NCBI GenBank assembly: GCA_017543595.1
Contig: JAFYFU010000088.1
Location: 16,621 to 80,620 of the forward strand
Length of the DNA stretch: 64,000 bases
Source of the DNA: Ruminococcus sp.
Lineage (GTDB): Bacteria; Bacillota; Clostridia; Oscillospirales; Ruminococcaceae
Direction: 5' to 3'
The notes under the pieces were generated by a model. The model was not told the DNA's origin and did not search any database. It saw only the letters and a list, made by a program, of their open reading frames with translations. The position numbers and the translations under genes were made by a program. Shown here in pieces: positions 10,368 through 50,734 of this stretch (the stretch's first letter is position 1; every line of letters begins with the position of its first letter).

Positions 10368-10371
10368 CTTA

Positions 10372-10787: not shown

Positions 10788-10835
10788 AAAGGCAAAAGCG
10801 GACAATAATTTTCAAAGTTTTCACATAAAAAATAA

Positions 10836-10853
10836 TCCCGTCAAAAGACGGGA
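10836..10853 (-). terminator. Intrinsic terminator of the MFS/spermidine synthase gene
   Basis: TCCCGTC (10836-10842), loop AAAA, GACGGGA (10847-10853). On the minus strand it is followed by TTATTTTTTAT and lies directly after the stop codon at 10858. Confidence 0.8.
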
Positions 10854-10857
10854 ATTT

Positions 10858-35172: not shown

Positions 35173-35177
35173 TTTAA

Positions 35178-36374
35178 GTGAAAGTCTACATTATCGGAAC
35201 GGGAATGGAGGGAAATCTGACCCTCACCGTTCACGCCAAGGAGCTTATCGAAAAATCCGATGTGATTATCGGGGCTGAAAGAATCGTTCGCCCCTTTAAA
35301 AGCACTGGAAAGCAAATAAAAATCACTTACGACACTGACGAAATTTGCCGATATATTGCGGAATTTAAAGATTTTCAGGTTGCCGTTCTCATGTCAGGCG
35401 ACTGCGGATTTTTCAGCGGCGCAAAAAAATTGGCTGACCGTCTGGACGACTGCGAAATTATCTGCGGAATCTCCTCGCCCGTTTATCTATGCTCAAAATT
35501 TGGCTTAACATGGGAAAATATGCGCTTTGTCAGCCTTCACGGAACTAAAAACAACATCGCCGTCAACGTGAAAACAAGTCAAAAATGTTTCTTTCTTTTA
35601 GATAATAAAATTAACATTTCTTCGCTGTGTCAGACCCTGTGTGAATATAATTTAAGTAACACAAAGGTTTATTTAGGCGAAAATTTAAGTTATTTTAATG
35701 AAAAAATTAAGTATGATTTTGCCTTTAATTTAATTAATTATAAGTCCGATAATTTAAGCTGCGCCGTGGTTGTGAACGACAATTTTATGGATTATGCGCC
35801 GTGCGGAATTAGCGACAGCGAGTTCATAAGAGAAAAAATTCCAATGACAAAATCAGAAATTCGGTGTGTCATCGCCTCAAAAATGAATGTGAAAAAAGGC
35901 GATATTTGTTGGGATATAGGCTGTGGGACGGGTTCTGTCTCGGTCGAAATCGCTTTGCGCTGCACAAGCGGAAGGGTGTTTTCCTTTGACAAAAATGAAG
36001 ATGCTCTGAGGCTTACGCAGGCTAACGCCCACAAATTCAGCTGCGATAATTTAAGTACGTTTAAATGCTGCCTGCCTGAAATTTCGGACGACATTCCCGC
36101 ACCCGACAAGGTTTTTATAGGCGGCAGCAGCGGAAAAATTAAGAAAATATTTAAGTTAATTTTACTTAAAAATCCGAATGTTTTAATCTGCGTCACGGCG
36201 GTTTCTTTGGAAACGCTAAGGGACGCTCAATCCGCTTTTGAAGATTTCGGACTTAATGTTGAAATCTCACAAATATCATCTTCGAGGATTGTGAAAATTG
36301 GTAAAAACTCCATGTTTTCAGCCAATAATCCCGTTTTTGTTCTTACAGGAGGCAAAAAATGCGGAGAATCATGA
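35178..36374 (+). CDS. cbiET: Bifunctional cobalt-precorrin-7 C5-methyltransferase / precorrin-6B C15-methyltransferase
   Basis: A 398-residue fusion of CbiE (about 1-200) and CbiT (about 210-390), equivalent to CobL. CbiE part: IIGTGMEGNLTLTVHAKEL and VLMSGDCGFFSGAKKL. CbiT part: a class I methyltransferase fold with GDICWDIGCGTGSVSVEIAL near residue 240; it also decarboxylates ring C. Starts with an AAGGAT site (ACGAAAGGAT) five bases after cbiJ and overlaps cbiA by 16 bases. Confidence 0.94.
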   Translation: MKVYIIGTGMEGNLTLTVHAKELIEKSDVIIGAERIVRPFKSTGKQIKITYDTDEICRYIAEFKDFQVAVLMSGDCGFFSGAKKLADRLDDCEIICGISSPVYLCSKFGLTWENMRFVSLHGTKNNIAVNVKTSQKCFFLLDNKINISSLCQTLCEYNLSNTKVYLGENLSYFNEKIKYDFAFNLINYKSDNLSCAVVVNDNFMDYAPCGISDSEFIREKIPMTKSEIRCVIASKMNVKKGDICWDIGCGTGSVSVEIALRCTSGRVFSFDKNEDALRLTQANAHKFSCDNLSTFKCCLPEISDDIPAPDKVFIGGSSGKIKKIFKLILLKNPNVLICVTAVSLETLRDAQSAFEDFGLNVEISQISSSRIVKIGKNSMFSANNPVFVLTGGKKCGES

Positions 36375-37705
36375 TTGCCGGAGCGAACAGCGGGTGCGGA
36401 AAAACTACAATTACTTGCTCATTACTTAAATCATTGCAAAGGCGTAAACTTAAATTATCATCATTTAAGTGCGGACCTGATTATATCGACCCGATGTTTC
36501 ACAAAAAGGTAATTTCTTTACCTTCTTATAATCTTGACAGTTTTTTCTGTGATGATAACACGATAAAATATCTCATTTTAGAGAACTCAAAAAACAGCGA
36601 TATTTCGATAATTGAAGGGGTCATGGGTTTCTATGACGGCGGACGTGGTTCGGCATTTTCCATATCTGAAATTACGGACACGCCCATAATTATGGTAATA
36701 AATTGCAGAGGAATGAGTGAATCTCTGGGGGCTGTCATGAAAGGCTTCCTGACTTACAAAACGCCCAATAAAATCATTGGTTTTATCTTTAACAAACTGC
36801 CAAAAAAGCTCGAAAAACAGGCGATTTCTCTGTGTGAAGAACTCAATACGGAATACTTCGGATTCTTTCCCGAAAATGATTTTAATTTTGACAGCCGACA
36901 CCTCGGACTTGTCACAGCAGATGAAATTATTAACTTAAATGATAAACTTGTTAAGCTTGCCGACTTATGCGATAAGTATATTTTAATTAATAAAATACTT
37001 AAATTTTCGGAGTCAGATAACTTAAATTATCAGAAAATCAACTTAAATTCGCCCATAACTTCATACCGCCCGACTATTGCGATAAGCAACGACAATGCAT
37101 TTTGTTTCAATTATTCGGACAATATTGCTCTGCTTGAAAATATGGGCTGCCATATAAAATATTTTTCTCCGCTTGATGATAAATATATACCAAAAGATGC
37201 GGACGGCTTGATTCTTTCGGGCGGTTATCCTGAACTCCATGCGAAAAAATTAAGCCTTAACCGTTCAATGATTGATTCCGTAAAATCCGCTATAAATTCA
37301 GGGATTCCGACTGTTGCAGAGTGTGGAGGATTCATGTATCTGCACGAATTTCTTGAAGATAAAGACGGCAGAATTTTCCCAATGGCAGGAATTATAAACG
37401 GCACAGCTTATAAAACCGACAGGCTCGGACATTTCGGATATGTTACACTAAAACCAAAAAACGACAGCCTTTTATTCAAAAAATCGGACAATATTGCTTC
37501 GCATGAGTTTCACTACTGGGAGAGTACCGCAAATGCCCAGGATTTATTGATTTCCAAGCGAAACGGCACTTCATGGAACGGCGGAATATGCAATAAATCG
37601 CTGTATGCAGGCTTTCCGCACCTTTATTTTTACTCCGACTTAAATATTCCACGGCGTTTAATTAAATCATGCATTAAATTTGGTGAAAAGAATGGAAAGA
37701 ATTAA
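36359..37705 (+). CDS. cbiA: Cobyrinate a,c-diamide synthase
   Basis: Amidates the a and c side chains using glutamine and ATP. 448 residues. N-terminal dethiobiotin synthetase-like domain with P-loop IAGANSGCGKTTITCSLLK; C-terminal class I glutaminase domain with the nucleophile Cys in TVAECGGFMYLHE near residue 320 and the His in SHEFHYWE near residue 383. Family and length agree with CbiA of the anaerobic pathway. Overlaps cobT. Confidence 0.95.
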   Translation: MRRIMIAGANSGCGKTTITCSLLKSLQRRKLKLSSFKCGPDYIDPMFHKKVISLPSYNLDSFFCDDNTIKYLILENSKNSDISIIEGVMGFYDGGRGSAFSISEITDTPIIMVINCRGMSESLGAVMKGFLTYKTPNKIIGFIFNKLPKKLEKQAISLCEELNTEYFGFFPENDFNFDSRHLGLVTADEIINLNDKLVKLADLCDKYILINKILKFSESDNLNYQKINLNSPITSYRPTIAISNDNAFCFNYSDNIALLENMGCHIKYFSPLDDKYIPKDADGLILSGGYPELHAKKLSLNRSMIDSVKSAINSGIPTVAECGGFMYLHEFLEDKDGRIFPMAGIINGTAYKTDRLGHFGYVTLKPKNDSLLFKKSDNIASHEFHYWESTANAQDLLISKRNGTSWNGGICNKSLYAGFPHLYFYSDLNIPRRLIKSCIKFGEKNGKN

Positions 37706-38741
37706 GTTAATTAATCCCACAGACAAAAAATTTGTCGGACTTTCAAGGCAAAAATGGAACAATGTTGCGAAACCCCTCGGAAGTCTCGGTGAATTTGAGA
37801 AAATCATTGAAAAAATTTCAGCCGTTCAGGAGTCCGCAAATGTCGATATATCGCAGAGAACAGCGGTTATCATGTGCGCTGACAACGGCGTTGTAAAGCA
37901 GAATATCTCCCAGTCGGGGCAGGAGGTCACCGCCCTCTGCGCCCGTTCAATCGCTGAGGGCAGGTCGAATATCAACGCCCTTGCAAGACGGTTCAATGCG
38001 GACGTTTTAGCCGTTGACATCGGTATAAATGCGGATATTAATTGTAAAAATTTGCTCACAAAAAAAATCATGTACGGCACAAATGATATTTCAACAGGTG
38101 CGGCTATGTCCGAAAATCAGGCGAAATCTGCAATTTCCGCAGGAATTGATATTGTCAGGCAGCTTAAAGAAAATGGTAAAAATATGATAATCACGGGCGA
38201 AATGGGAATCGGAAACACAACGACTTCTTCCGCCGTTGCATCGGTCATTCTCGGTGTCAGTGCGGAGTGCGTGACGGGCAGGGGCGCAGGGCTTACAGAT
38301 GACGGTTTAAAGCGGAAAATCGAGGTTATCAACACTGCCCTGAAAGTAAATTCGCCCGACAAAAACAATCCCCTTGACATTCTCGCAAAGGTGGGCGGTC
38401 TGGATATCGCAGGCATGACGGGGCTTTTCCTCGGCGGAGCGATTTATCATGTTCCGACAGTCATAGACGGCGTAATTTCGGCAGTTTCGGCAGCTCTTGC
38501 CTTTATGATTTCGCCGCATTGTGCGGACTATATGCTTGCCTCCCACGTTTCGGAAGAACCTGCGGGGAAAATGCTGCTTGACTTTATCGGGCTGAAACCC
38601 GTGATAAATGCAGGTCTGAGACTTGGCGAAGGGACGGGCGGAATTTTTCTGCTTCCTCTGCTTGACGGCGCACTTTCGGTATATAAAAATTCCCATACCT
38701 TTGAAGAACTGGGAATTGAAAAATATGAGGAATTATCATGA
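37692..38741 (+). CDS. cobT: Nicotinate-nucleotide dimethylbenzimidazole phosphoribosyltransferase
   Basis: Activates the lower ligand base as alpha-ribazole phosphate. 349 residues from ATG 37692. Signatures: KPLGSLGEFEKI near residue 30, VIMCADNGVVKQNISQSGQEVT near residue 60, GEMGIGNTTTSSAV near residue 175 and AGLRLGEGTGGIFLLPLLDGA near residue 310, where the Glu is catalytic. A GTG at 37683 is an alternative start. Overlaps the ends of cbiA and cobU by a few bases. Confidence 0.94.
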   Translation: MERIKLINPTDKKFVGLSRQKWNNVAKPLGSLGEFEKIIEKISAVQESANVDISQRTAVIMCADNGVVKQNISQSGQEVTALCARSIAEGRSNINALARRFNADVLAVDIGINADINCKNLLTKKIMYGTNDISTGAAMSENQAKSAISAGIDIVRQLKENGKNMIITGEMGIGNTTTSSAVASVILGVSAECVTGRGAGLTDDGLKRKIEVINTALKVNSPDKNNPLDILAKVGGLDIAGMTGLFLGGAIYHVPTVIDGVISAVSAALAFMISPHCADYMLASHVSEEPAGKMLLDFIGLKPVINAGLRLGEGTGGIFLLPLLDGALSVYKNSHTFEELGIEKYEELS

Positions 38742-39247
38742 CTATACTTGTTACAGGCGGCTCTAAATGCGGGAAATCAAGCTTTGCGGAGAACTGTCTT
38801 AAAGATTTCAAAGGATATAAATATTATATAGCAACTATGAAACCTTACGGTGAAGATGCCTATGAAATTATTCAAAGGCACAGAAAAGCAAGGGCTGAAA
38901 AAAATTTCATTACAATTGAAAAATATACAGATGTACATGAGCTTGAATTTCCCGAAAATTCGGCAGTTTTGCTTGAATGTACGGGGAATCTCCTTGCAAA
39001 TGAAATGTTTTCGGAAAACGGCATTGAAAATCCCGTTGATAAAATATTAAAAGGTTTAAAAAAAATAAGCCTGAGCGTTTCGGAATTTGTCATAGTGTCA
39101 AATGAAGTTTCCTCGGACGGAATAAGTTATCCGCCCGAAACCATGAAATATATTGAATATCTATGTGCGATAAACAGGGGCATTTTGGAATTTGCCGACA
39201 AAACCGCAGAATGTGTATACGGAATCCCTGTTTTGATTCGGAATTAA
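38738..39247 (+). CDS. cobU: Adenosylcobinamide kinase / adenosylcobinamide-phosphate guanylyltransferase
   Basis: Phosphorylates and then guanylylates adenosylcobinamide. 169 residues. P-loop VTGGSKCGKSSFAENCL at the N-terminus, IATMKPYGEDAYEIIQRHRKAR near residue 31 (the H..R segment carries the guanylylated His) and LLECTGNLLANEMF and VSNEVSSDGI further on. A second, degenerate CobU-like gene is found three positions downstream (40028). Confidence 0.94.
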   Translation: MTILVTGGSKCGKSSFAENCLKDFKGYKYYIATMKPYGEDAYEIIQRHRKARAEKNFITIEKYTDVHELEFPENSAVLLECTGNLLANEMFSENGIENPVDKILKGLKKISLSVSEFVIVSNEVSSDGISYPPETMKYIEYLCAINRGILEFADKTAECVYGIPVLIRN

Positions 39248-39260
39248 AAAGGGGGTTTTT

Positions 39261-40010
39261 ATGCTGAAATCAATGCTTTCGGCTTTTCTGATGTATTCGA
39301 GAATACCCGTTCCGCAGGTTGAATGGAAAGAGGAAAACAGGCGGTATTCCCTGTGTTTTTTCCCGCTGATAGGCGTTATTCAGGGGATAATATTTATTCT
39401 TTGGAAAATCCTCTGCACGAAATTAAATTTCGGGGAAATATTATTTTCCTGCGTGGCGGTATTTATTCCCGTGCTTGTAAACGGCGGAATACACCTTGAC
39501 GGATTCTGCGACACTTCCGATATGCTTGCGTCCTACGGAGACAAAGAAAAAAGATTAAAAATTCTCAGTGATTCGCACATAGGAGCATTTGCAGGAATCA
39601 GGCTTGCAGTGTATTTCATTCTGCAAATCGGGATATATTCGGAAGTCAAAAATATAAAACTTTCAGTAATTATATCTCTCACTTTTGTATTGTCAAGAAT
39701 TTTAAGTTCATTCGGGGCGGTAACTTTCAGATGCGCCAAAAAAAGCGGTTCTTTGCAGGATTTTGTCAGACCCTCGCACAAGAAAATAAGTCTTGTAATT
39801 CTTTCGGCATGGCTTTTGGTATGCGTTTCGGGATTTGTAATTACAAGCCTTAAAATCGGGATATGTGCCGTAATTCTGGCAACTTCGGTATTTGTTTATT
39901 ACAGATATAAATTCTATAAGGAAATAGGCGGAATAACAGGAGATACGGCAGGCTGGTTCTTGCAGGTCTGCGAACTTGTCACGGCATTTTCCATATTAAT
40001 TGATAATTAA
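39261..40010 (+). CDS. cobS: Adenosylcobinamide-GDP ribazoletransferase
   Basis: Joins adenosylcobinamide-GDP with alpha-ribazole (or its phosphate) in the membrane. 249 residues with five to six hydrophobic segments. The active-site region NGGIHLDGFCDTSDMLASYG near residue 74 and KILSDSHIGAFAG near residue 98 are the diagnostic CobS blocks (DG..D..D...). GGITGDTAGW near residue 225 is the third. Separated from cobU by 13 bases. Confidence 0.95.
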   Translation: MLKSMLSAFLMYSRIPVPQVEWKEENRRYSLCFFPLIGVIQGIIFILWKILCTKLNFGEILFSCVAVFIPVLVNGGIHLDGFCDTSDMLASYGDKEKRLKILSDSHIGAFAGIRLAVYFILQIGIYSEVKNIKLSVIISLTFVLSRILSSFGAVTFRCAKKSGSLQDFVRPSHKKISLVILSAWLLVCVSGFVITSLKIGICAVILATSVFVYYRYKFYKEIGGITGDTAGWFLQVCELVTAFSILIDN

Positions 40011-40027
40011 AGGAGAGTCATTCAAAT

Positions 40028-40405
40028 ATGCACATGATAGCTGGCGGAGCTTTTCAGGGGAAAAGAGAATTTGCAAAGAATTATTTTAAGACAAAAAATA
40101 TGACCAATGGCGAAATATGCGGATTTGATGAGGTTTTCAGCGCAGAATGTATTTACAATTTTCATATGCTTGTAAAAAGACTTACTGCCGAAAATATCAA
40201 TTGCATTGAGTTTACTGAAAGAATCATAAGGGAAAATAAAAATTTAATTGTTATAATCAATGAGATAGGGTGCGGAATAGTTCCCATTGACAAAAATGAA
40301 AGAATATGGCGTGAAAATGTCGGAAAATGCGGCTGTATGATTGCGGCTGCATCTGAGAAAGTTATAAGGATTTTCTATGGAAAAGCAGTTTTTATTAAAA
40401 ATTAA
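40028..40405 (+). CDS. CobU-like protein with degenerate P-loop
   Basis: A 125-residue protein that resembles a shortened CobU. The N-terminus reads MHMIAGGAFQGKREFAKNYF, where GGAFQGKR replaces the GxxxxGK[ST] P-loop: the Ser/Thr is missing. The C-terminal half has INEIGCGIVPIDKNERIWRE and then IAAASEKVIRIFYGKAVFIK, matching the 'tNEvG.GivP.....R.wrd..G' end of CobU kinases. The guanylyl-His segment is not evident. It may be a decayed copy, a regulatory paralogue or a specialised kinase; the intact cobU nearby makes the first two more likely. Its end overlaps cobC by 29 bases, so it is translated within the operon. Confidence 0.7.
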   Translation: MHMIAGGAFQGKREFAKNYFKTKNMTNGEICGFDEVFSAECIYNFHMLVKRLTAENINCIEFTERIIRENKNLIVIINEIGCGIVPIDKNERIWRENVGKCGCMIAAASEKVIRIFYGKAVFIKN

Positions 40406-40946
40406 TTTTATCCGTCACGGCTTGACGGCAGGCAACGAAACTAAAAAATATATCGGACGGACTGATGAAAATTTATCCGAAAAGGGCATAGATATGCTGA
40501 AAAATATAAAATATCCCGAATGTGATATTTTATTTGTAAGCCCCATGAAAAGATGTATTCAGACAGCGGAAATAATTTATCCCGACAAAAAATATACAAT
40601 TTGCGATGATTTGAGGGAATGTGATTTCGGAGATTTTGAAGGAAAAAATTATCAGGAACTCAAAGATAATATATTGTATCAGAAATGGATTGACAGTAAC
40701 GGAACGGATACTTTCCCGAACGGCGAAAACCCCGAAAATTTCAAGAAAAGATGCGTAAAAGCATTTCTTGAAATTATTAAAAATACCGACAGTAAAAATA
40801 TTTCTTTTGTGGTTCACGGGGGAACAATCATGGCTATACTTGAAAAATTATCAAATAAATCTTTCTATGAATGGCATATTGAAAATGCACACGGATTTAT
40901 TACGGAATATGACGGAGAAAAAATAAACGTATGGAAAAAATTTTAA
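40377..40946 (+). CDS. cobC: Alpha-ribazole phosphatase (histidine phosphatase family)
   Basis: Removes the 5' phosphate of alpha-ribazole phosphate. 189 residues of the phosphoglycerate-mutase-like superfamily: the phosphorylated His lies in NFIRHGLTAGNE near residue 12, YIGRTDENLSEKG follows, SPMKRC near residue 55 and VVHGGTIMAIL near residue 145 carry the second Arg and His. The position between cobS and cbiB supports the CobC assignment over a general phosphatase. Confidence 0.88.
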   Translation: MEKQFLLKINFIRHGLTAGNETKKYIGRTDENLSEKGIDMLKNIKYPECDILFVSPMKRCIQTAEIIYPDKKYTICDDLRECDFGDFEGKNYQELKDNILYQKWIDSNGTDTFPNGENPENFKKRCVKAFLEIIKNTDSKNISFVVHGGTIMAILEKLSNKSFYEWHIENAHGFITEYDGEKINVWKKF

Positions 40947-41896
40947 TAATTCTTCCGCTTGCAATCGGATTTATTCTTGATTCAATAATAGGCGACCCGT
41001 ACAGTTTGCCGCACCCCATAAGGCTTATCGGGAATCTTATTTCTGGGCTTGAAAAATTTGCAAGAAAAAATTTCAGAAATCTTAAAATCGGCGGACTGAT
41101 ACTTGTCATATGCACAGTAATATTATCTTCGGGAATACCATTTCTGATTTTATTTATTTCATATAAAATATCTGTTGTACTCGGAATAATTGCCGAAAGC
41201 ATAATGTGCTTTTATCTGACGGCTGCGAAATGTCTTAAAGACGAAAGCATGAAAGTATATAAAGCCTTTGAAAATAATGATACCGAAAAAGCAAGAAAAG
41301 CCGTTTCAATGATTGTCGGCAGAGATACCGATATTCTCGATAAAAACGGAATTATCCGTGCCGCAGTCGAAACCGTTGCGGAGAATACTTCCGATGGCGT
41401 GACAGCACCTTTAATGTATATGTCTCTTGGCGGTGCAGTCCTCGGATTTTTCTATAAATCGGTAAACACTATGGATTCAATGATTGGCTATAAAAATGAA
41501 AAATATGCGGATTTGGGATATTTTGGTGCAAAACTCGATGATGTTTTAAATTATATTCCGTCAAGGCTTACAGCGGTTATAATGATATTTTCGGCATTTA
41601 TTCTTGGATATGACTATAAAAACGCATATAAAATATGGCAGCGTGACAGAAGAAAACACGCAAGCCCAAACTCCGCACAGACAGAATCAGTTTGTGCAGG
41701 GGCATTGAATGTCCGTCTTGCGGGAGATGCCTATTATTTCGGAGAACTTCATAAAAAAGAATACATAGGCGATAATATAAGGGAAATTAAAAATGATGAC
41801 ATAAAATCCGCAAACAAGCTTATGTATATGTCAGCAGTCATAACACTGATTTTTTCAATTATATTCAGATTTATTTTATGGGGAGTGATATTGTGA
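40931..41896 (+). CDS. cbiB: Adenosylcobinamide-phosphate synthase
   Basis: Attaches aminopropanol phosphate to adenosylcobyric acid. 321-residue membrane protein with four to five hydrophobic segments. ILDSIIGDPYSLPHPIRLIG near residue 17-36 is the CbiB signature, then SMIVGRDTDILDKNGIIRAAVETVAENTSDGV near residue 125 and DRRKHASPNSAQTESVCAGAL near residue 240. Written here in short pieces of one conserved block; length is normal. Starts within the end of cobC. Confidence 0.94.
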   Translation: MEKILIILPLAIGFILDSIIGDPYSLPHPIRLIGNLISGLEKFARKNFRNLKIGGLILVICTVILSSGIPFLILFISYKISVVLGIIAESIMCFYLTAAKCLKDESMKVYKAFENNDTEKARKAVSMIVGRDTDILDKNGIIRAAVETVAENTSDGVTAPLMYMSLGGAVLGFFYKSVNTMDSMIGYKNEKYADLGYFGAKLDDVLNYIPSRLTAVIMIFSAFILGYDYKNAYKIWQRDRRKHASPNSAQTESVCAGALNVRLAGDAYYFGELHKKEYIGDNIREIKNDDIKSANKLMYMSAVITLIFSIIFRFILWGVIL

Positions 41897-42903
41897 TTCA
41901 CGGCGGAGATATTTTCGACAAAGATATATTATATGATTTTTCCTCAAATGTAAATCCTCTCGGTATGCCCGAAAATGTAAGGAAAATTCTTGTATCTTCC
42001 GTTGATTTGTGGGAAAAATACCCCGATTATAAATGCAGGGAATTAATAAAAAAATTATCCGTTTATGAGAATATTTCGCCCGAAAACATAGTCTGCGGAA
42101 ACGGTGCGGACGATTTGATATTCAGGATAAAATATGCACTCAACCCTAAGAAAATATTAATATGCGAACCGACTTTCAGCGAATATGAAAGGGCTTTTTC
42201 GGATTCTGATATAAAAAAATATATCCTTAAAGAAGAAAATAATTTTAATATACAGAAGGATATTCTGAATTATATCAATGATATTGACATGATGATAATA
42301 TGTTCTCCAAATAACCCGACAGGAATTATTCCCGATATAAATATAATCAAATCAATCGCAGAAAAGTGCATGGAGAAAAATATAATTCTCCTCTGTGACG
42401 AATGTTTTCTTGACTTTGCGGAAAATGCCGAAAATCTCAGCATTAAGAATTACCTGAACAAAAATACAATAATTCTCAAAGCCTTTACAAAAATATATGC
42501 AATGGCAGGATTAAGGCTTGGATATGCACTTTTCGGAGACAGTGAAACTGCGGAAAGAATAAAAAATACAGGGCAGTTCTGGTCTGTTTCCTATCCTGCA
42601 CAAACCGCAGGAATTTATGCACTTGACGAAAAAAACTACATAAAAAACACTGTAAAATATATCAAGCATGAAAGAGAATATCTCACCGAAAATTTAAGAA
42701 AATACAATATAAAAGTCTTTGATTCAAGTGTAAATTTTATCCTGCTTAAAACGGATATTCCGCTTTATAAAATACTCCTGAAAGACAAAATTCTGATAAG
42801 AAAAAATCTCAGCGGTCTTGATGATAAATTCTATCGCATGGCAGTAAGAACGCACGAAGAAAACGAATATTTTATAAATACAATAAAAAAGGGGCTGAAA
42901 TAA
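41878..42903 (+). CDS. cobD: L-threonine-O-3-phosphate decarboxylase
   Basis: PLP enzyme that makes (R)-1-amino-2-propanol phosphate for CbiB. 341 residues, fold type I aminotransferase. LYDFSSNVNPLGMPENV near residue 18, GNGADDLIFRI near residue 75, CSPNNPTGIIPD near residue 142 and AFTKIYAMAGLRLGYALF near residue 201, in which the Lys holds PLP. Aminotransferases such as histidinol-phosphate aminotransferase are related, but the place between cbiB and cbiP supports CobD. Overlaps cbiB by 19 bases. Confidence 0.92.
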   Translation: MGSDIVIHGGDIFDKDILYDFSSNVNPLGMPENVRKILVSSVDLWEKYPDYKCRELIKKLSVYENISPENIVCGNGADDLIFRIKYALNPKKILICEPTFSEYERAFSDSDIKKYILKEENNFNIQKDILNYINDIDMMIICSPNNPTGIIPDINIIKSIAEKCMEKNIILLCDECFLDFAENAENLSIKNYLNKNTIILKAFTKIYAMAGLRLGYALFGDSETAERIKNTGQFWSVSYPAQTAGIYALDEKNYIKNTVKYIKHEREYLTENLRKYNIKVFDSSVNFILLKTDIPLYKILLKDKILIRKNLSGLDDKFYRMAVRTHEENEYFINTIKKGLK

Positions 42904-42906
42904 AAA

Positions 42907-44361
42907 ATGGGCAAATCTGTAATGATTCAGGGTACTATGTCAAATTCGGGAAAGTCTTTTATTTCGGCAGGACTTTGCAGAATATTCATGCAGGACGGTT
43001 ATTCCTGTGCGCCTTTTAAATCGCAGAATATGGCTTTAAATTCCTATGTCACAAAAGAGGGGCTTGAAATAGGCAGGGCGCAGGCTGTACAGGCTGAATC
43101 CGCAGGAATAAAGCCTTCTGTCCTTATGAACCCGATTTTATTGAAACCCACTACAAATATCGGCTCGCAGGTTATTCTCAACGGCAAGCCTTTCGGAAAT
43201 ATGAGTGCAGGTGAATATTTCAAGAGAAAAACAGAATTTATTCCGCATATAAAAAATGCCTATGAAAAATTATCATCAATGCATGATATAATTGTCATTG
43301 AGGGTGCAGGAAGTCCCGTTGAATTAAATCTGAAAATAAATGATATTGTCAATATGGGCATGGCTGAAATGGCGGATTCTCCCGTTATTATTGTCGGAGA
43401 TATAGACAGGGGCGGAATTTTCGCACAGCTTTACGGCACTGTTTCGCTTTTAAATCCTGATGAGAGAAAACGTGTAAAAGGCTTGATAGTAAATAAATTC
43501 AGGGGCGATATTTCGCTTTTTGATGAGGGTGTAAAAATTCTTGAAAATCTCTGCGGAGTGCCTGTACTCGGCGTTGTTCCGTATATAAAATGCGATATGG
43601 AAGATGAGGACAGCCTCTCGGAAAAGCTTGAAAACAATAAAACTTCTTATATAAATATAGCGGTTATAAAACTACCTAAGCTTTCAAACTTCACAGATTT
43701 TGATGTTTTTCTGCAATATAAGGGCGTGGGGGTATATTATGCCGAAAAGCCCGAAGATTTGCTTTCTGCGGATATGATTGTAATTCCCGGGACAAAGAAT
43801 ACTGTTGCGGATATGAAATATTTACGTGAATCAGGCTTTGAATATGCCGTAAAATCTGCCGTTTCAAAGAATATCCCCATATTCGGAATATGCGGAGGTT
43901 ATCAGATTCTCGGCAAAAAAATTTCAGACCCTTTAAATTCTGAGGGCGGAGAAAATATTGACGGCATGGGACTTTTGGACTGCGAAACTGTTTTTTCGGA
44001 CGAAAAGAAAACTGTTCTCACGAACGGGAAATTCAAAGATATTTCGGGGTATTTCAGTTTTCTTTCGGGGAAATCTTTCAGCGGTTACGAAATACACATG
44101 GGAGTTACTGAAAATACAGGAAATATTCTTACCGACTGCGGAGGGGCTTATAAAGACAATGTTGCAGGCTGTTATATTCACGGAATTTTTGATATTGTCG
44201 CAGAGGATATAATCAAAAATTTATTCCTGAAAAAAGGCATTGAATATATGGGCGGTATCACCGACAGAAACAAATACAAAAATCAGCAGCTTGACATTCT
44301 CGCCGAAAATATCAGGAAAAATATTGACATGAAAAAATTATACGAAATAACAGGAGTTTAA
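42907..44361 (+). CDS. cbiP: Cobyric acid synthase
   Basis: Amidates the b, d, e and g side chains using glutamine and ATP. 484 residues. N-terminal MIQGTMSNSGKSFISAGLCR P-loop and PFKSQNMALNSYVTKEGLEI near residue 36, glutaminase domain with Cys in IFGICGGYQILGK near residue 328 and the His in YIHGIF near residue 425. Length matches CbiP/CobQ. Follows cobD by three bases. Confidence 0.95.
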   Translation: MGKSVMIQGTMSNSGKSFISAGLCRIFMQDGYSCAPFKSQNMALNSYVTKEGLEIGRAQAVQAESAGIKPSVLMNPILLKPTTNIGSQVILNGKPFGNMSAGEYFKRKTEFIPHIKNAYEKLSSMHDIIVIEGAGSPVELNLKINDIVNMGMAEMADSPVIIVGDIDRGGIFAQLYGTVSLLNPDERKRVKGLIVNKFRGDISLFDEGVKILENLCGVPVLGVVPYIKCDMEDEDSLSEKLENNKTSYINIAVIKLPKLSNFTDFDVFLQYKGVGVYYAEKPEDLLSADMIVIPGTKNTVADMKYLRESGFEYAVKSAVSKNIPIFGICGGYQILGKKISDPLNSEGGENIDGMGLLDCETVFSDEKKTVLTNGKFKDISGYFSFLSGKSFSGYEIHMGVTENTGNILTDCGGAYKDNVAGCYIHGIFDIVAEDIIKNLFLKKGIEYMGGITDRNKYKNQQLDILAENIRKNIDMKKLYEITGV

Positions 44362-44363
44362 TT

Positions 44364-44993
44364 ATGGAACTTGAATACGTCCTCCCGAAAGATATCGAAA
44401 AAAGAAGCTTTGAGATAATTTCCTCTGAACTTAAAAAAGATATTCCCGAAAATATAAAGCCTGTCGTCATGAGGGTAATTCATACAACTGCGGACTTTGA
44501 ATATGCGGATAATTTGTATTTCTCGGAAAATGCAGTCGAAAAAGCTCTTGAAATTCTCAAAAAAGGCGCAGTAATCGTAACTGATACAAATATGGCATTA
44601 TCGGGAATAAATAAAAATGCACTGAATATTTTAGGCTGTAAGGCGGTATGTTTCATGGCTGACAGAGAGGTTGCCGAAACTGCAATTGAAAAAAATCTGA
44701 CCCGTGCAATGGTTTCGGTTGACAAGACCGCAGAAATAAAAGAACCTGTAATATTTGTTTCGGGAAATGCCCCCACTTCATTGATAAGGCTTTGCGAACA
44801 TATGGAAAAAGGCGATTTTACCCCTGAATTTGTAATAGCCTGTCCTGTCGGCTTTGTAAATGTAATCCAGTCAAAAGAAATGATAATTAATTCGGGCGTT
44901 CCCTGCATAGTCGCAAGAGGAAGAAAGGGCGGAAGCAATGTTGCCGCCGCCGTATGTAATGCCCTTATGTATATGATAACAAGAAATAAATAA
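44364..44993 (+). CDS. cbiC: Cobalt-precorrin-8 methylmutase
   Basis: Moves the methyl group from C11 to C12, giving cobyrinic acid. 209 residues. IEKRSFEII near residue 10 and VMRVIHTTADFEYAD near residue 38, with the catalytic His in RVIHTT, VTDTNMALSGIN near residue 73 and CPVGFVNVIQSKE near residue 155 are all conserved. Last gene of the synthesis block; no terminator is evident after it, and a new promoter and riboswitch follow within 60 bases. Confidence 0.95.
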   Translation: MELEYVLPKDIEKRSFEIISSELKKDIPENIKPVVMRVIHTTADFEYADNLYFSENAVEKALEILKKGAVIVTDTNMALSGINKNALNILGCKAVCFMADREVAETAIEKNLTRAMVSVDKTAEIKEPVIFVSGNAPTSLIRLCEHMEKGDFTPEFVIACPVGFVNVIQSKEMIINSGVPCIVARGRKGGSNVAAAVCNALMYMITRNK

Positions 44994-45078: not shown

Positions 45079-45100
45079 ATTATTATCATAGCTATGAATA

Positions 45101-45334
45101 TTGCAGTCGGTGCTTTTGTGCTTATGTGGAAAAGTTAAAAGGGAAGCGTGTGAAATTCACGCACGAACTCGTCACTGTAAGCATGGAGTTTAAAGCTTTT
45201 TATGTCACTGAGAAATTGGGAAGGCTCGCTTTAAGCATTGATATGCAAGTCAGGAAACCTGCCGGCTGTTGTACAGAAACACAAGTTTCAGGTCACGAGG
45301 TATTGACCGTACATTACAGACAAAACCTGTCTGT
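45101..45334 (+). promoter_or_regulatory. Cobalamin (B12) riboswitch
   Basis: The aptamer elements appear in order: GTCGGTGC opening, GGGAAGCGTGTGAAATTCACGC, ACTCGTCACTGTAA, CACTGAGAAATTGGGAAGGC and the B12 box GCAAGTCAGGAAACCTGCC (45245-45263). Downstream lies a hairpin, ACAGACA (45316-45322) with TGTCTGT (45328-45334), as the likely expression platform. There is no clear T-run after it, so translational control or processing is as likely as termination. In this class, adenosylcobalamin binding normally lowers expression of the genes downstream. Confidence 0.92.
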
Positions 45335-45390
45335 TATGCTTTAAAAAACATATGGGTCATGCCTTTCTTATTGAAAGGATTGATTTTACA

Positions 45391-46554
45391 ATGAAAAAAT
45401 TAAGTATATTTTTAACTTGCCTTGCACTTACTGCTGCAATGGCTTCATGCGGAAGTTCAGATACATCTAATGCGGATTCAAAGAGTTCCGCTCCGAAGGC
45501 AGAAGAATCTGCTGTTGAAGAAACTGAACCTGAAACCGAAGAAGTTTCAGAAGAAGAAACTGAACCCGAAACAGAAGCAACTACCAAGAAATCCAAGAAG
45601 AAAAAGGAAAAGACCACAGAAGCCGCTACCGAAGCTGCTACCGAAGCCGCAACAGAAGAAACTTCAACAGAAGCCGCTACCGAGGAAGAAGAAGAATATG
45701 ACGGTGACGACTACGACACAGGTGACCCCACTCTCGACAATATAAGAAATGAGGACGAAATCGGTGAAAATGAAATCCTTGTTGTAAGTTTCGGAACAAG
45801 CTACAACGACAGCAGACGACTTACTATCGGCGCAATAGAGGATTCAATCGAAAATGCTTTCCCTGATTATGCCGTAAGACGTGGCTTTACTTCCGATATA
45901 ATCATTGACCACGTTAAAAAACGTGACAAGATAACCATTGACAGTCTTGATGATGCACTTAAAAGAGCCTCTGACAATAAAGTTAAAAATCTTGTTATAC
46001 AGCCCACTCACCTTATGAACGGCTTTGAATACGAAGAAATTGAAGAAAAAATCGCTCAGTATTCAGATGCTTTTGACAAGGTTGCAATCGGACTTCCCCT
46101 CCTTACAAATGATGACGATTTCAAGAAAGTTGAAGAAGCAATAGTTGACTGGACAAGCGATTACAACAACGATGAAACTGCTGTTGTTTTCATGGGTCAC
46201 GGCACAGAGGCTGATTCAAACGGCGTATACCAGAAAATGCAGGATTTGCTCACAGAGGACGGTCACAAGAATTACTTTATCGGAACTGTTGAGGCTACAC
46301 CAAGCCTTGATGACGTTATCGCAAAGGTAAAGGAAGGCAATTACAAGAAAGTTGTTCTTGAACCCCTTATGGTAGTTGCAGGTGACCACGCAAACAACGA
46401 TATGGCTGGCGATGAGGACGATTCATGGAAATCAGCTTTTGAAAGAGAAGGCTTTGAGGTTGAATGTCTGCTCAGAGGTCTCGGCGAAAATGATGCAATA
46501 AGACAGATATATGTTGACCACGCTCAGGAAGCAATTAACGCAATAAATCAGTAA
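45391..46554 (+). CDS. Exported CbiK-type cobaltochelatase lipoprotein
   Basis: A 387-residue lipoprotein. The signal MKKLSIFLTCLALTAAMASC ends in a lipobox with Cys20. A linker of about 95 residues rich in Glu, Thr, Ala and Lys follows, then a complete CbiK domain starting EILVVSFGTSYNDSR. The metal-binding triad of CbiK is present: H270 in FMGHGTEAD, E301 in GTVEATP and H333 in VVAGDHANNDMAGD. Cytosolic CbiK inserts Co2+ into sirohydrochlorin; a periplasmic form (CbiKP) is known in Desulfovibrio. Here the enzyme should be outside the cell. The start at 45391 has GAAAGGA upstream; earlier in-frame starts would spoil the signal. It follows a B12 riboswitch. Confidence 0.9.
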   Translation: MKKLSIFLTCLALTAAMASCGSSDTSNADSKSSAPKAEESAVEETEPETEEVSEEETEPETEATTKKSKKKKEKTTEAATEAATEAATEETSTEAATEEEEEYDGDDYDTGDPTLDNIRNEDEIGENEILVVSFGTSYNDSRRLTIGAIEDSIENAFPDYAVRRGFTSDIIIDHVKKRDKITIDSLDDALKRASDNKVKNLVIQPTHLMNGFEYEEIEEKIAQYSDAFDKVAIGLPLLTNDDDFKKVEEAIVDWTSDYNNDETAVVFMGHGTEADSNGVYQKMQDLLTEDGHKNYFIGTVEATPSLDDVIAKVKEGNYKKVVLEPLMVVAGDHANNDMAGDEDDSWKSAFEREGFEVECLLRGLGENDAIRQIYVDHAQEAINAINQ

Positions 46555-46566
46555 TTTTAAAATTTC

Positions 46567-46598
46567 GGCGGAGGGATTTCGGTTCTTCCGCCATTTTA
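46567..46598 (+). terminator. Weak hairpin between the chelatase and the next lipoprotein gene
   Basis: GGCGGA (46567-46572) pairs with TCCGCC (46587-46592), then ATTTTAA. The short T-run suggests partial read-through rather than a full stop. Confidence 0.4.
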
Positions 46599-46614
46599 AC
46601 GGGAGAATATACTT

Positions 46615-47571
46615 ATGAAAAAATTAATTATTTCGGCAATTATCTTATCAATGGCACTTGCATCATGTTCTTCGGGAAACAGCGTTTCCGAAAGTTCACA
46701 GGATACAAAATCGGAAGTTATTCAGGAAACTACGGAAGAAATTACGGAAGAACCAACAGAAGAAACCACAGAGGAAATCACAGAGGAAATTACGGAAGAA
46801 TCAACTCAGGAGGCAAGTGAGGAAAAACAGACCGTCCCCCCGGAAGAAGTAGGCTATGAGGGAATGACGGCAGTCTATGCGGAAAATCTTGTTGACGGGG
46901 AATATGATATTTCTGTCGATTCAAGTTCTTCAATGTTTAATATAACAGCCTGCAAATTAACTGTCGCTGACGGGGAAATGACCGCTGAAATAACTATGGG
47001 CGGAACAGGTTACAAATGGCTTTTCATGGGAACGGGCGAAGATGCCGAAAATGCCGATGAAAGCGAATATATCCCCTATACCGAACAGGACGGACTTAAT
47101 ATATTTACCGTTCCCGTATCAGCTCTTGATGAAGTAATCGACTGCACAGCTTTCAGCAAAAAGAAAGAAACATGGTACGACAGACAGCTTGTATTCCGTG
47201 CGGATTCTCTCCCCATGACGGCATTTAAAGAGGGCAGAGGAAACACTGTTGAAACTCTCGGACTTGCGGACGGAACTTATAATATGAATGTAAGTCTTTC
47301 AGGCGGTTCAGGCAGGGCAAGCATAAACTCCCCCGCAAAGGTAACCGTAACAGACGGAAAAGCCGTTGCAGAAATTATTTGGAGCAGTAACAAATATGAC
47401 TATATGATTGTAAATGACGAAAAATATTTACCCGTATCCGTTGAGGAAAATTCCGTATTTGAGATACCCGTTGATATTTTCGACTGCGAATTTACGGTAT
47501 ACGCAGATACTACTGCGATGAGTACCCCCCATGAAATAGAATACAAGCTTTGTTTTGATTCTTCAACATGA
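46615..47571 (+). CDS. Two-domain surface lipoprotein of unknown function
   Basis: 318 residues; I do not recognise the family. Lipoprotein signal MKKLIISAIILSMALASC (Cys18), then a Glu/Thr linker with EITEE-like repeats to about residue 75. Two related beta-rich domains follow: about 93-200 (LVDGEYDISVDSSSSMFNIT...) and about 220-318 (LADGTYNMNVSLSGGSGRAS...). Shared features are DG.Y.(I/M).V at the start, (L/V)TV.DG...AEI in the middle, a Y.W/YDYM strand, FTVPVSALDE or FEIPVDIFDC, and a closing strand. The second domain ends ADTTAMSTPHEIEYKLCF. Its stop overlaps the start of the importer binding protein (ATGA), which argues for a role in ligand capture at the surface. Confidence 0.7.
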   Translation: MKKLIISAIILSMALASCSSGNSVSESSQDTKSEVIQETTEEITEEPTEETTEEITEEITEESTQEASEEKQTVPPEEVGYEGMTAVYAENLVDGEYDISVDSSSSMFNITACKLTVADGEMTAEITMGGTGYKWLFMGTGEDAENADESEYIPYTEQDGLNIFTVPVSALDEVIDCTAFSKKKETWYDRQLVFRADSLPMTAFKEGRGNTVETLGLADGTYNMNVSLSGGSGRASINSPAKVTVTDGKAVAEIIWSSNKYDYMIVNDEKYLPVSVEENSVFEIPVDIFDCEFTVYADTTAMSTPHEIEYKLCFDSST

Positions 47572-48683
47572 AAAGATTTATTATATTAATTCCGCTTTTA
47601 ATTCTTTGTTCCTGCGGAGAGAAAAATAATACACAGCCTGAAAATTCGGAGAAAATAAACCTTGAATATGCACAGCAGTTTTCAGTTGAAAAAATCGGGG
47701 ATATATCATATGTAAAAACAGGCAAGGGAGATGAATTTCTGCTTGTTCCGAAAAATACTCCCGTCCCCGATGAGTATAAAAATATAAAGACTATATATAC
47801 TCCCGTTGAAAATATCTATGTTGCATCATCTTCCGCAACGGATTTATTTCACGAAATAAATTCCCTCGATTCAATAAAATTCACCTCAACGGACGAAAAA
47901 GACCAAAGCACGGAATATGCAAAAACCGCAATAAAAAACGGGGATATTATATATGCGGGAAAATACAGAACCCCCGACTTTGAATTATTATTGTCGGAAA
48001 ACTGCGGTCTTGCCATAGAAAACACCATGATTTATCATACCCCCGAAATCAAGGAACAGCTCGAAAATCTGAATATTCCCGTAATTGTTGAATATTCAAG
48101 CTACGAACCGCACCCCCTCGGAAGAATGGAATGGGTAAAGCTTTACGGACTTCTCACGGGTCACGAAAAAGAGGCAGAGGAATTTTTCAGCGAAAAATCA
48201 AAGCTTGTTGAAAATCTCAATCTTGACAATATAAACCCCGATGAGAAAAAATCCGTTGCATTTTTCTATATAACTTCAAACGGCTACGCAAGCGTGAGAA
48301 AACCAAATGACTATGTTTCAAAAATGATTGAACTCGCAGGCGGAGAATATATTTTTACGGCAGATGATTTGAATGTTGACGAAAATGCACTCTCAACAAT
48401 GAATATTCAGATAGAAACTTTCTACGAAAAAGCCAAAGATGCGGATATTATCGTCTATAACAGCACCATTGACGGAGAAATCCAAAATGTCCAACAGCTT
48501 ATTGAAAAAAGCAGTGTTCTGGCGGATTTTAAAGCCGTTAAAAATAATAACATCTGGTGCAGTGAAAAAAATATGTTTCAGCAGACAGGCGCAGCCGCAG
48601 ATATTATAATCGAAATGAATAAAATAATTACCGATACTGCGGAGGACGATACGGAATTTTTCCATCGTGTTAAGAATGAATAA
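47568..48683 (+). CDS. ABC importer substrate-binding lipoprotein (BtuF/FecB type)
   Basis: 371 residues with a lipoprotein signal MKRFIILIPLLILCSC. The body is a class III periplasmic-binding fold: a start with VPKNTPVPDEYKNIKTIYTP, IYVASSSATDLFHEIN, then LLLSENCGLAIEN and IPVIVEYSSYEPHPLGRMEWVKLYG, and a second lobe with VAFFYITSNGYASVRKPNDYVSKMIELAGG. This family binds corrinoids, haem or iron chelates. The B12 riboswitch and the CbiK lipoprotein upstream favour a tetrapyrrole ligand. Translationally coupled to the genes on both sides. Confidence 0.88.
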   Translation: MKRFIILIPLLILCSCGEKNNTQPENSEKINLEYAQQFSVEKIGDISYVKTGKGDEFLLVPKNTPVPDEYKNIKTIYTPVENIYVASSSATDLFHEINSLDSIKFTSTDEKDQSTEYAKTAIKNGDIIYAGKYRTPDFELLLSENCGLAIENTMIYHTPEIKEQLENLNIPVIVEYSSYEPHPLGRMEWVKLYGLLTGHEKEAEEFFSEKSKLVENLNLDNINPDEKKSVAFFYITSNGYASVRKPNDYVSKMIELAGGEYIFTADDLNVDENALSTMNIQIETFYEKAKDADIIVYNSTIDGEIQNVQQLIEKSSVLADFKAVKNNNIWCSEKNMFQQTGAAADIIIEMNKIITDTAEDDTEFFHRVKNE

Positions 48684-49653
48684 GAAATCAAGATATGCAA
48701 TCTGCTTTTTGATTTTAATAATTTTATATTTTTTCCTGATATTTTTAAATCTAATCAAAGGCAGTACAAATATAAATATTTCAGATGATTCAGTCGCAAG
48801 AAATATTGTGATGAATATAAGACTTCCACGGACGCTTGCGGCGGCAATACTCGGCGGAGCATTGGCAGTATCAGGATTTTTATTGCAGAATTTTTTCTCA
48901 AATCCGATAGCAGGACCTTTTGTTTTGGGAATTTCATCGGGCGCAAAACTCATTGTCGCTTTAAGCATGATATTTACTCTCTCAATGGGGATAGCATCAA
49001 ATTCATTTATAACGGTTTCGGCGGCTTTTGTCGGCTCAATGATGTCAATGGGCTTTATATTATTGATATCGGGAAAAATAAAAAACGTATCGCTTTTAAT
49101 AATTGCAGGCGTTATGACGGGATATATCTGCAATTCAATTACGGAACTTGCCGTAACTTTTGCGGACGATTCAAACATAGTAAATCTTCATAACTGGTCT
49201 GTCGGAACATTTTCGGGAACGGATATGGAAGAAGTTTATTTCATGTCGGCAATAGTTATTCCCTGCGTATTTTTCACGTTTATGCTTTCAAAACCGCTTT
49301 CGGCATTTCAGCTCGGAGAGGCTTATGCGGAGAGCATGGGCGTAAATATAAAACTTTTCAGATTTGAATTAATATTGTTGTCGAGTATACTTTCCGCCTG
49401 TGTTACGGCATTTGCAGGACCTGTATCATTTCTGGGAGTGGCAGTACCGCACATTATAAAAGGAATGTTCCGAACCGCAAAACCTATAATAATTATTCCG
49501 GCGGTATTTCTTGGCGGAGGAGTTATGTGTCTTTTCTGCGACTTAATCGCAAGAACTTTATTCTCCCCTACCGAACTGAGTATCAGCACTGTAACGGCTA
49601 TTTTCGGCGCACCTGTCGTTATATTGATAATGATTAGACGAAAGAGGGGTTAA
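48676..49653 (+). CDS. ABC importer permease (FecCD/BtuC family)
   Basis: 325 residues with about nine hydrophobic helices. LPRTLAAAILGGALAVSGFLLQNFFSNPIAGPF near residue 47-80 is the defining FecCD motif (R.pR...a...G..La.sG...Q....NPLA.P), seen here with FVLGISSGA after it, and GPVSFLGVAVPHIIKGMF near residue 248. ATG 48676 is within the end of the binding-protein gene. Substrate as for its partner. Confidence 0.92.
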   Translation: MNKKSRYAICFLILIILYFFLIFLNLIKGSTNINISDDSVARNIVMNIRLPRTLAAAILGGALAVSGFLLQNFFSNPIAGPFVLGISSGAKLIVALSMIFTLSMGIASNSFITVSAAFVGSMMSMGFILLISGKIKNVSLLIIAGVMTGYICNSITELAVTFADDSNIVNLHNWSVGTFSGTDMEEVYFMSAIVIPCVFFTFMLSKPLSAFQLGEAYAESMGVNIKLFRFELILLSSILSACVTAFAGPVSFLGVAVPHIIKGMFRTAKPIIIIPAVFLGGGVMCLFCDLIARTLFSPTELSISTVTAIFGAPVVILIMIRRKRG

Positions 49654-49654
49654 T

Positions 49655-50734
49655 ATGCTTGAAACAAAATCTCTCAATGCGGGTTACGGCAAAAAAATAA
49701 TTGTAAACAATGCCGATATTCATATAAACAGGGGCGAAATAACTACTCTTATAGGTTCTAACGGTTCAGGGAAATCAACCCTTCTGAAAACAATATCATC
49801 TCAGCTTGAAAAAATTTCAGGGAATATTTATATACAGGACAAAGATATATCATTGTATCAGAGAAATGAACTTGCAAGAACTGTTTCTCTCATGCTTACG
49901 GGCAAAACCGAACCCGAACTTATGACCTGCCTTGAACTTGTCGAAAGCGGAAGATACCCCTATACGGGTACTTTGGGAATACTTTCGGCGGAGGACAAAA
50001 AAAAGGCTCTGGACGCAATAAAACTTGTCGGCGGTGAGGATATCGCCGACAACGATATAAATAAAACAAGTGACGGACAAAGACAAAAAATCATGCTTGC
50101 AAGGGCAATCTGTCAGGAAACAGATATAATGATTCTCGATGAACCGACATCTTTTCTTGACATAAAGCATAAACTTGAATTATTAAATATATTAAAAAAT
50201 CTTGTCCGTGAGAAAAATACAACTGTTATTATGTCCCTGCATGAACTTGACCTCGCACAGAAAATATCAGATAAAATTATCTGCGTAAAAAATAATAAAA
50301 TTGACCGCATAGGAACTCCCGAAGAAATATTTTCAGGGGATTACATCAATAAACTCTATGATATAAAGTGCGGAAGCTATAACGATATTTATGGTTTTTC
50401 GGAACTTGAAAAAATATCGGGAACTCCCGAAATATTTGTAATCTCAGGAAACTGCACCGAACTCTGCCGTAAACTTCAAAGGGACGGCATACCTTTTGCG
50501 GTGGGAGTGATTCAGGAAAATGATGCGGAATACCCCATAATTTCCGCCCTTGCATCTGTTACCGTTACGGAAAAAGCCTATGAACCCATAAGCCCCGAAA
50601 AATTACAGCTTGCAAAAGATATAATCAAAAACTGCCGTGAAGTTGTCTGCAACTGCAAAACTTTCGGAACTGTAAACAGGGGAAATCTTGAATTGCTTGA
50701 ATTTGCCGAAAAGCATAATAAATTAAAAAAATAA
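49655..50734 (+). CDS. ABC importer ATPase with an extra C-terminal domain
   Basis: 359 residues, longer than the usual 255 for BtuD/FecE. ABC part (about 1-240): Walker A GSNGSGKST at 34-42, signature TSDGQRQ (in place of LSGGQ), Walker B MILDEPTSFLD and the switch His in MSLHELD. Residues about 255-359 form an additional domain beginning TPEIFVISGNCTELCRKLQRDGIPFAVGV and ending VVCNCKTFGTVNRGNLELLEFA; I cannot name it, though it looks like a small alpha/beta domain. It may sense a ligand or regulate transport. The gene follows the permease by one base and ends at a terminator. Confidence 0.88.
   Translation: MLETKSLNAGYGKKIIVNNADIHINRGEITTLIGSNGSGKSTLLKTISSQLEKISGNIYIQDKDISLYQRNELARTVSLMLTGKTEPELMTCLELVESGRYPYTGTLGILSAEDKKKALDAIKLVGGEDIADNDINKTSDGQRQKIMLARAICQETDIMILDEPTSFLDIKHKLELLNILKNLVREKNTTVIMSLHELDLAQKISDKIICVKNNKIDRIGTPEEIFSGDYINKLYDIKCGSYNDIYGFSELEKISGTPEIFVISGNCTELCRKLQRDGIPFAVGVIQENDAEYPIISALASVTVTEKAYEPISPEKLQLAKDIIKNCREVVCNCKTFGTVNRGNLELLEFAEKHNKLKK

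Follow-up and report, generated by a model that had tools for sequence, protein, structure and literature searches.

A putative surface unit of CbiK-type chelatase, NEAT-type lipoprotein and importer for salvage of a vitamin B12 precursor in Ruminococcus and other Clostridia

The exported chelatase FetB/IhtB of Porphyromonas gingivalis (PDB 9b86) and the periplasmic CbiK of Desulfovibrio vulgaris (2xvx/2xvy/2xvz) are the closest described relatives of a CbiK-type lipoprotein encoded in a 64,000-nucleotide stretch of DNA from Ruminococcus sp. (assembly GCA_017543595.1, contig JAFYFU010000088.1, positions 16,621 to 80,620 of the forward strand), called the window below. Like these two proteins (E 9.1e-43 with FetB/IhtB; E 1.2e-39 with the catalytic domain of the D. 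vulgaris protein), it is predicted to be exported, and its gene is followed, behind a cobalamin riboswitch, by genes for a two-domain lipoprotein and an ATP-binding cassette (ABC) importer. From the sequence comparisons reported here we consider it probable that this unit is a surface salvage-and-import system for a tetrapyrrole precursor of vitamin B12, with cobalt insertion at the surface.

FetB belongs to the setting of an outer membrane with TonB-type partners. Desulfovibrio reportedly has a second, cytosolic CbiK, a haem-related role is said to have been proposed for the exported one, and we know of no NEAT or importer unit that accompanies it. The Isd/Hup haem uptake systems share with the present unit NEAT-fold capture domains, an IsdE-like binding lipoprotein, a FecCD permease and an ATPase; Isd systems are regulated by iron and, to our knowledge, their surface relay contains no chelatase. 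Unlike Isd/Hup, the present unit has a B12 riboswitch, and the second domain of its lipoprotein (D2) carries the motif [H/Y]xxxY where the first (D1) has a Lys at the aligned place. A review describes FetB as a chelatase that exchanges porphyrin metals (PMC13402209) and IhtB has been termed a putative ferrochelatase or reverse ferrochelatase (PMC13227078). In the available text of these papers FetB is tied to haem iron and Mn-porphyrin, whereas the type found here is Gram-positive, has NEAT partners and a B12 riboswitch, and is often joined to cbi genes.

The tetrapyrrole precursor salvagers defined by Shelton et al. 2018 (PMC6461909) are, in the available portion of that paper, mostly Firmicutes and, like the organism studied here, have the whole corrin pathway but lack early tetrapyrrole genes; dependence on 5-aminolaevulinic acid (ALA) was shown in three species, and P. 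gingivalis too is without the steps to precorrin-2. Those salvagers were tested with ALA, whereas here SUMT and SirC are missing as well and neither ALA nor uroporphyrinogen III could feed the pathway; the same portion names no uptake unit for such salvagers. A rumen metagenome study (PMC12654859) reports, in its available sections, one contig set with BtuFCD and a sirohydrochlorin cobaltochelatase, said to transport sirohydrochlorin too, and another that covers 8 of the 10 corrin steps but 0 of the 5 early ones, classed as a cobinamide salvager; these sections describe no surface unit. In the open-access literature searched, we found no description of a NEAT-CbiK-importer unit, no paper pairing a NEAT domain with CbiK and none in which a cobalt chelatase has a signal peptide together with a cobalamin riboswitch. 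An earlier note on this DNA, made from the letters alone, had called such a surface version little described, which holds for Gram-positives; besides the Desulfovibrio case that it named, FetB/IhtB of P. gingivalis is a close precedent. Each part comes from a known family, and it is their arrangement and proposed role that make a new variant.

The unit comprises the following features, in window coordinates:

45091..45280, + strand: cobalamin riboswitch aptamer (RF00174; cmscan 103.4 bits, E 8.8e-25, above the gathering score of 31.5)
45281..45375, + strand: likely expression platform, hairpins between the aptamer and the CbiK gene (from folding)
45391..46554, + strand: CbiK-type class II chelatase lipoprotein with signal, lipobox (Cys20), Glu/Thr linker and CbiK domain (from PF06180, the metal triad and solved relatives)
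46615..47571, + strand: lipoprotein (Cys18) with tandem NEAT-type domains, D1 at ~46891-47217 and D2 at ~47254-47568
47568..48683, + strand: ABC substrate-binding lipoprotein with class III fold, Lmo2184/IsdE-like by profile (PF01497, Peripla_BP_2, E 2.4e-26)
~48673..49653, + strand: ABC permease of the FecCD/BtuC family (PF01032, E 6.8e-72)
49655..50734, + strand: FecE/BtuD-like ABC ATPase with a ~110-residue C-terminal extension (PF00005, E 2.4e-29)

The likely start of the CbiK gene is the ATG at 45391, the lipid-bearing Cys is residue 20 and the stop lies at 46554. The Pfam CbiK model covers residues 129-382 (E 2.2e-87; 293.2 bits, cut-off 26.2); the NCBIfam equivalog for cobaltochelatase CbiK (NF047852) gives 245.7 bits, below its cut-off of 400, which makes the protein a relative only. 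Its solved relatives are 1qgo, 9b86 (FetB) and 2xvx. When one genome of each species was scanned with a CbiK alignment, at least 592 relatives were confirmed, of which the best 80 loci were analysed. The complete H-E-H metal triad read by the earlier note, H270/E301/H333 in alignment with 1qgo, does not vary in any of 81 aligned sequences, of which 80 come from these loci and one from the window. That note had also seen the lipoprotein signal and the Glu/Thr linker, and both are there; the acidic, Glu/Thr-rich linker measures about 105 residues from the lipid Cys to the CbiK domain, not 95.

The surface location that it proposed is supported and conserved in several families. Among 96 CbiKs read in loci L117-L216 (L and G numbers are our handles for loci and genomes), a lipobox is present in 86 (recognised by pattern in 76 and by eye in 10) and another export signal in 8; one is cut by a contig end and one is cytosolic (L216, the second copy of G142). 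The N-terminal sequences vary although the export signal is kept. That the signal is a one-off was rejected, a lipobox being present in 17 of 17 cases (16 same-genus genomes, including the window's, and G030). An internal start giving a cytosolic CbiK was also rejected for the window gene, in which the first 140 codons contain in-frame starts at 45391 and 45439 alone, both within the signal region. Such a form may be made in some relatives to judge from their codons, as 49 of 80 have some ATG, GTG or TTG in frame before the domain, 24 of them with a Shine-Dalgarno-like stretch; the other 31 have none. Two variants occur. In L215 (G135, ~10035-11942, minus strand) the CbiK domain stands last in an exported protein of greater length, behind a Sec-type signal and ~200 residues of a further domain, perhaps a fused partner; L233 (G061) and L230 (G134) encode lipoprotein CbiKs with no D1/D2 match, apparently a separate version of the same arrangement.

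The window genome has the genes for making the corrin ring from the CbiL step on, and the exported protein is both its one CbiK match and its one CbiX match. In this genome (93.5% complete) hemB, SUMT and a convincing SirC (best E 1.1e-4) were not found; hemA, hemL, hemC and hemD were not searched. On these genes it has the precursor-salvager pattern, the corrin pathway kept and early steps missing. Sixteen genomes of the genus have CbiK, and in 13 of them, among these the window's, hemB was not found. We then compared 80 genomes of the class, 38 with the unit and 42 controls. A genome was taken as unit-positive by a D1/D2 match (G023 instead by an exported CbiK where its contig stops). Controls were the first 41 cbiD-bearing unit-free genomes in list order, later ones being left out, plus G036, which has no cbiD match; G119, G148, G169, G193 and G216 were skipped for completeness or contamination. 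SirC was counted at E below 1e-10. This sample overlaps the locus sets, some of the best 80 records being contigs of the same genomes (e.g. L133/G004, L129/G002).

In this comparison hemB was present in 8 of 38 unit genomes versus 33 of 42 controls, SUMT in 10 versus 34 and SirC in 9 versus 34. When genomes were sorted by the location of CbiK, SUMT was present in 4 of the 31 whose sole CbiK is exported and in 30 of the 34 that have a cytosolic one (p 5e-10); with one row per genus the figures are 1 of 12 and 21 of 24 (p 6e-6), both tests ignoring kinship above genus. These export counts leave out 11 controls without a full CbiK and four unit genomes: no CbiK was matched in G252 and G414, that of G287 is a fragment with stops, and G040 has a divergent match of 37 bits. 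The unit counts do include G065 and G218, whose cbiD is divergent and which have no CbiK. In 27 of 36 genomes with an exported CbiK, hemB, SUMT and SirC are missing together. Both forms of CbiK occur in five genomes (G142, G151, G269, G332 and G427), each of which has SUMT and SirC; hemB is present in three (G142, G151 and G332), and in all five the cytosolic CbiK is encoded within ~5 kb of SUMT or hemB. In G061 and G134, which have an exported CbiK and no D1/D2 match, hemB and SUMT were likewise not found. The two-form genomes and this pair point to an outside CbiK that would serve import and an inside CbiK that would serve the cell's own synthesis. Taken as a whole, the comparison gives strong support to a probable tie between the exported CbiK unit and salvage of a tetrapyrrole precursor for B12. 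Besides this, divergent cbiD homologs (~150-210 bits) were seen in G065, G218, G421, G317 and G405; in the first two CbiK, hemB and SUMT were not found, and they perhaps have a different pathway.

The protein encoded next to CbiK had been described earlier as an unknown two-domain lipoprotein. The two domains stand, and a fold test identifies them as a NEAT-type pair with the haem-capture fold of Isd systems, clear for D2 and by homology to D2 for D1. Among relatives, at E<=1, PF05031 matches the whole pair in 66 of 70 (best 1.9e-9) and, as single domains, D1 in 15 of 24 (best 0.006) and D2 in 20 of 24 (best 1.1e-6). Of 70 members, 57 have His and 13 have Tyr at position 232 of D2, and position 236 is invariably Tyr; the profile alignment pairs the invariant Lys110 of D1 with His232 of D2. 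The D2 motif [H/Y]232xxxY236 falls two residues past the YxxxY haem-ligand motif of NEAT5 in a weak profile alignment of tentative register, and D1 has no such motif. D1/D2-type domains also occur in raw open frames of ~800-1200 residues in L088, L107, L108 and L105 (genomes G260, G135, G040 and G287, respectively), perhaps large surface proteins.

The model of the binding protein has a predicted local distance difference test score of 95.1. By family profile it matches Lmo2184 (7.5e-9) and IsdE (2e-4) in the PDB, and not BtuF at E<=0.001. Its fold was of no use for assigning a ligand class, as binders of siderophores, of haem and others of class III score alike; no BtuF is named among the fold matches listed, which proves nothing. 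The top NCBIfam model for the permease is BtuC, with 204.9 bits, below the equivalog cut-off of 334. The alignment of the ATPase to the corrinoid ATPase model NF007082 extends through residue 335. The genes had been described as coupled by overlaps; this is so for the NEAT lipoprotein and the binding protein and for the binding protein and the permease, but permease and ATPase are one base apart.

The aptamer is the sole RF00174 match genome-wide; the feature as first delimited, from 45101, cuts 10 bases off it. Positions 45276-45375 fold at -25.8 kcal/mol (z -2.96 versus shuffles). Among 36 related loci scanned, which are 17 of the 80 above and 10 of 18 and 9 of 20 from two other locus sets, RF00174 lies ahead of the unit in 33, with none at L169, L183 and L184. 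The B12 riboswitch that the earlier note placed before CbiK is confirmed by these results, and B12 control is conserved. D1 and D2 are present in 78 of the 80 loci, and the co-occurrence in other Clostridia that the note had proposed to look for, of a lipobox CbiK with D1/D2 and the riboswitch, is indeed found.

The linkage of the surface CbiK to an importer also holds, in several families. CbiK is followed by D1, D2, btuF, btuC and btuD within 6.5 kb in 62 of 80 loci, which leads us to discount a chance arrangement; of the remaining 18, 13 are cut by the end of the locus and 5 (L140, L154, L163, L173 and L189) depart from this order. At L189 an exported CbiK stands with btuFCD and D1/D2 are not detectable. 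In the split loci L199, L201, L202, L204 and L205, four of them from one genus, D1 adjoins CbiK and D2 adjoins btuF. A corrin-ring gene lies within the locus in 32 of 80 cases and any cob/cbi match in 44, and in a sample of the class cbiD is present in 20 of 22 NEAT-family genomes versus 108 of 391 overall. In G006, G007, G010 and G019, cob genes were not found near the unit within the stretch read. These four had suggested a unit without a corrin pathway; in G019 the cob operon was found elsewhere (C2, L322), and for that genome the idea was set aside. Isolates carrying the unit are Ruminococcus flavefaciens Y1 and ND2009, Evtepia gabavorous KLE1738 and Fusobacterium naviforme ATCC 25832. The window itself holds a corrin block ahead of the unit:

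30141..44993, + strand: corrin/cobamide genes cbiL, D, F, G, H, J, ET, A, cobT, cobU and cobS (NCBIfam, Pfam)
within 30141..44993, + strand: cobC-like phosphatase, cbiB, cobD-like aminotransferase, cbiP and cbiC (NCBIfam, Pfam)

A T-box leader (1552-1783, 110 bits) lies ahead of a long gene at 1850.

The corrin enzymes from CbiL on require a ring pre-methylated at C2 and C7. In a cell with no SUMT, ALA and uroporphyrinogen III therefore cannot feed them, which leaves precorrin-2, sirohydrochlorin with or without a metal, or some later intermediate as the compound. The substrate of CbiK is sirohydrochlorin, not corrins, and possible outside sources are sirohaem enzymes and the metal-free sirohydrochlorin of Desulfovibrio sulfite reductase. 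We propose that, in a cell unable to make sirohydrochlorin itself, the NEAT-type pair would capture an external tetrapyrrole at this level, metal-free sirohydrochlorin and perhaps sirohaem too. The lipid-anchored CbiK would add cobalt to give cobalt-sirohydrochlorin (cobalt-factor II), which would pass to the binding lipoprotein, be imported by the permease and ATPase and enter the corrin pathway at CbiL. Because of the gene pairing in the split loci, D1 may work with CbiK on the substrate and D2 may hand the metallated product to the binding protein. Adenosylcobalamin would turn the unit off through the riboswitch, and control would thus fall on the entry step. The objection of the earlier note, that an outside CbiK makes no sense for a substrate made in the cytosol, is not borne out, as the genome seems unable to make the precursor; a CbiK outside the cell makes sense if that is where its substrate is found. 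As to what is taken up, that note had named corrinoid precursors or haem: a precursor fits, at the sirohydrochlorin level, and haem is less favoured by the evidence.

Other explanations were weighed. The unit could simply import B12 or cobinamide as other BtuFCD-type systems do, under control of its riboswitch, with CbiK and the NEAT domains only helping to bind or re-cobalt damaged corrinoids. Corrinoid importers are commonly under B12 riboswitches, BtuC is the top model of the permease and nucleotide-loop genes are present in the organism; however, the loss of hemB, SUMT and SirC that the exported CbiK tracks while corrin-ring genes stay, and the triad kept in all 81 sequences, are left unexplained, CbiK does not act on corrins, and the binding protein resembles Lmo2184 and IsdE and not BtuF in the profile search, so that we regard this explanation as unlikely. 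Haem or iron scavenging of the kind proposed for FetB/IhtB, with a surface CbiK that strips or swaps the metal of haem and an Isd-like import of haem or porphyrin, seems improbable to about the same degree. NEAT domains and an IsdE-like binding protein would suit it, FetB is one of the three solved CbiK relatives, and genomes without hemB cannot make haem. The reported exchange of porphyrin metals by FetB, as given in the available text of PMC13402209, agrees with it too. It fits poorly with a B12 riboswitch before 33 of 36 units, with corrin-ring or other cob/cbi genes in the loci (32 and 44 of 80), with cbiD in 20 of 22 NEAT-bearing sample genomes and with the extra cytosolic CbiK that five genomes have along with SUMT and SirC.

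The chelatase could also work in the other direction, removing iron from sirohaem at the surface, with metal-free sirohydrochlorin imported and cobalted inside. Class II chelatases bind several metals, and metal-free import may exist in G092 and G171, where a cytosolic CbiK stands beside BtuCD-type genes and SUMT is missing. No cytosolic CbiK or CbiX that could re-cobalt the ring was found in the window genome, though, and the CbiM start motif, which would mark a cobalt importer, was seen within the loci read only in L258, L264 and L271, all with cytosolic CbiK, and in none of those with an exported CbiK; demetallation is thus a doubtful reading, weaker than the two above. Weakest of all is the idea that the signal is unused, or that a cytosolic form is also made, and that CbiK is a normal cytosolic biosynthetic enzyme. 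The gene has the cob operon for a neighbour, like the genes of the cytosolic CbiKs of G035 and G202, and the in-frame starts of 49 of 80 relatives, 24 with a Shine-Dalgarno-like stretch, would allow it. It is very improbable in view of the lipobox or other export signal kept in 94 of 96 CbiKs despite variable N-termini, the lack of an internal start in the window gene and in 31 of 80 relatives, the signal-less cytosolic paralogs held by the same five genomes, and the upstream genes that were not found.

Salvage with cobalt insertion at the surface has its own difficulties. We infer the substrate and the direction of metal transfer. PF05031 gives the window lipoprotein 19.5 bits (E 0.0014), below the gathering score of 32.8, D2 alone 15.8 bits and D1 alone no match, and the fold comparison of the binding protein does not separate haem from siderophore binders. 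G005, G012, G016 and G350 have SUMT but only an exported CbiK; in G012 a cluster of hemA, sirC, hemC, cobA-hemD, hemB and hemL contains no second chelatase, so SirC, CbiK or something else must act there. Conversely, G092, G171, G202 and G319 have no SUMT yet a cytosolic CbiK (in G092 and G171 beside the BtuCD-type genes), and precursor salvage therefore does not require an outside chelatase. The NEAT unit alone predicts SUMT less well by genus (6 of 16 versus 24 of 30 control genera, p 0.008, again ignoring kinship above genus), and one genus supplies 16 of the 38 unit-bearing genomes. Since the window genome is 93.5% complete, a single hem cluster such as that of G012 could fall in the gap. 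With these points counted, cobalt insertion outside the cell is the best-supported mechanism, although unproven.

Many gut and rumen relatives of Ruminococcus appear to have lost ring synthesis and to have a scavenged ring supplied with cobalt at the surface, then imported. We hold it evenly balanced whether sirohydrochlorin that other cells shed is metallated, and its cobalt complex imported, by a surface machine widespread among clostridia, so that ring and cobalt would enter together and sirohydrochlorin would be a shared good of gut and rumen communities. Bacteria with a corrin pathway and without its early steps had been predicted before, with the source of the ring left open; the unit described here is a concrete answer at the level of genes. 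If it is true, the first dedicated step of B12 synthesis would lie outside the cell, and reconstructions that count CbiK as B12 synthesis and ignore its location would miscall such species; in the available text of PMC6593275, for example, the producer route begins with CbiK/CbiX and upstream steps are not included. It would also give gut and rumen ecology a new traded nutrient, and NEAT domains a role beyond haem.

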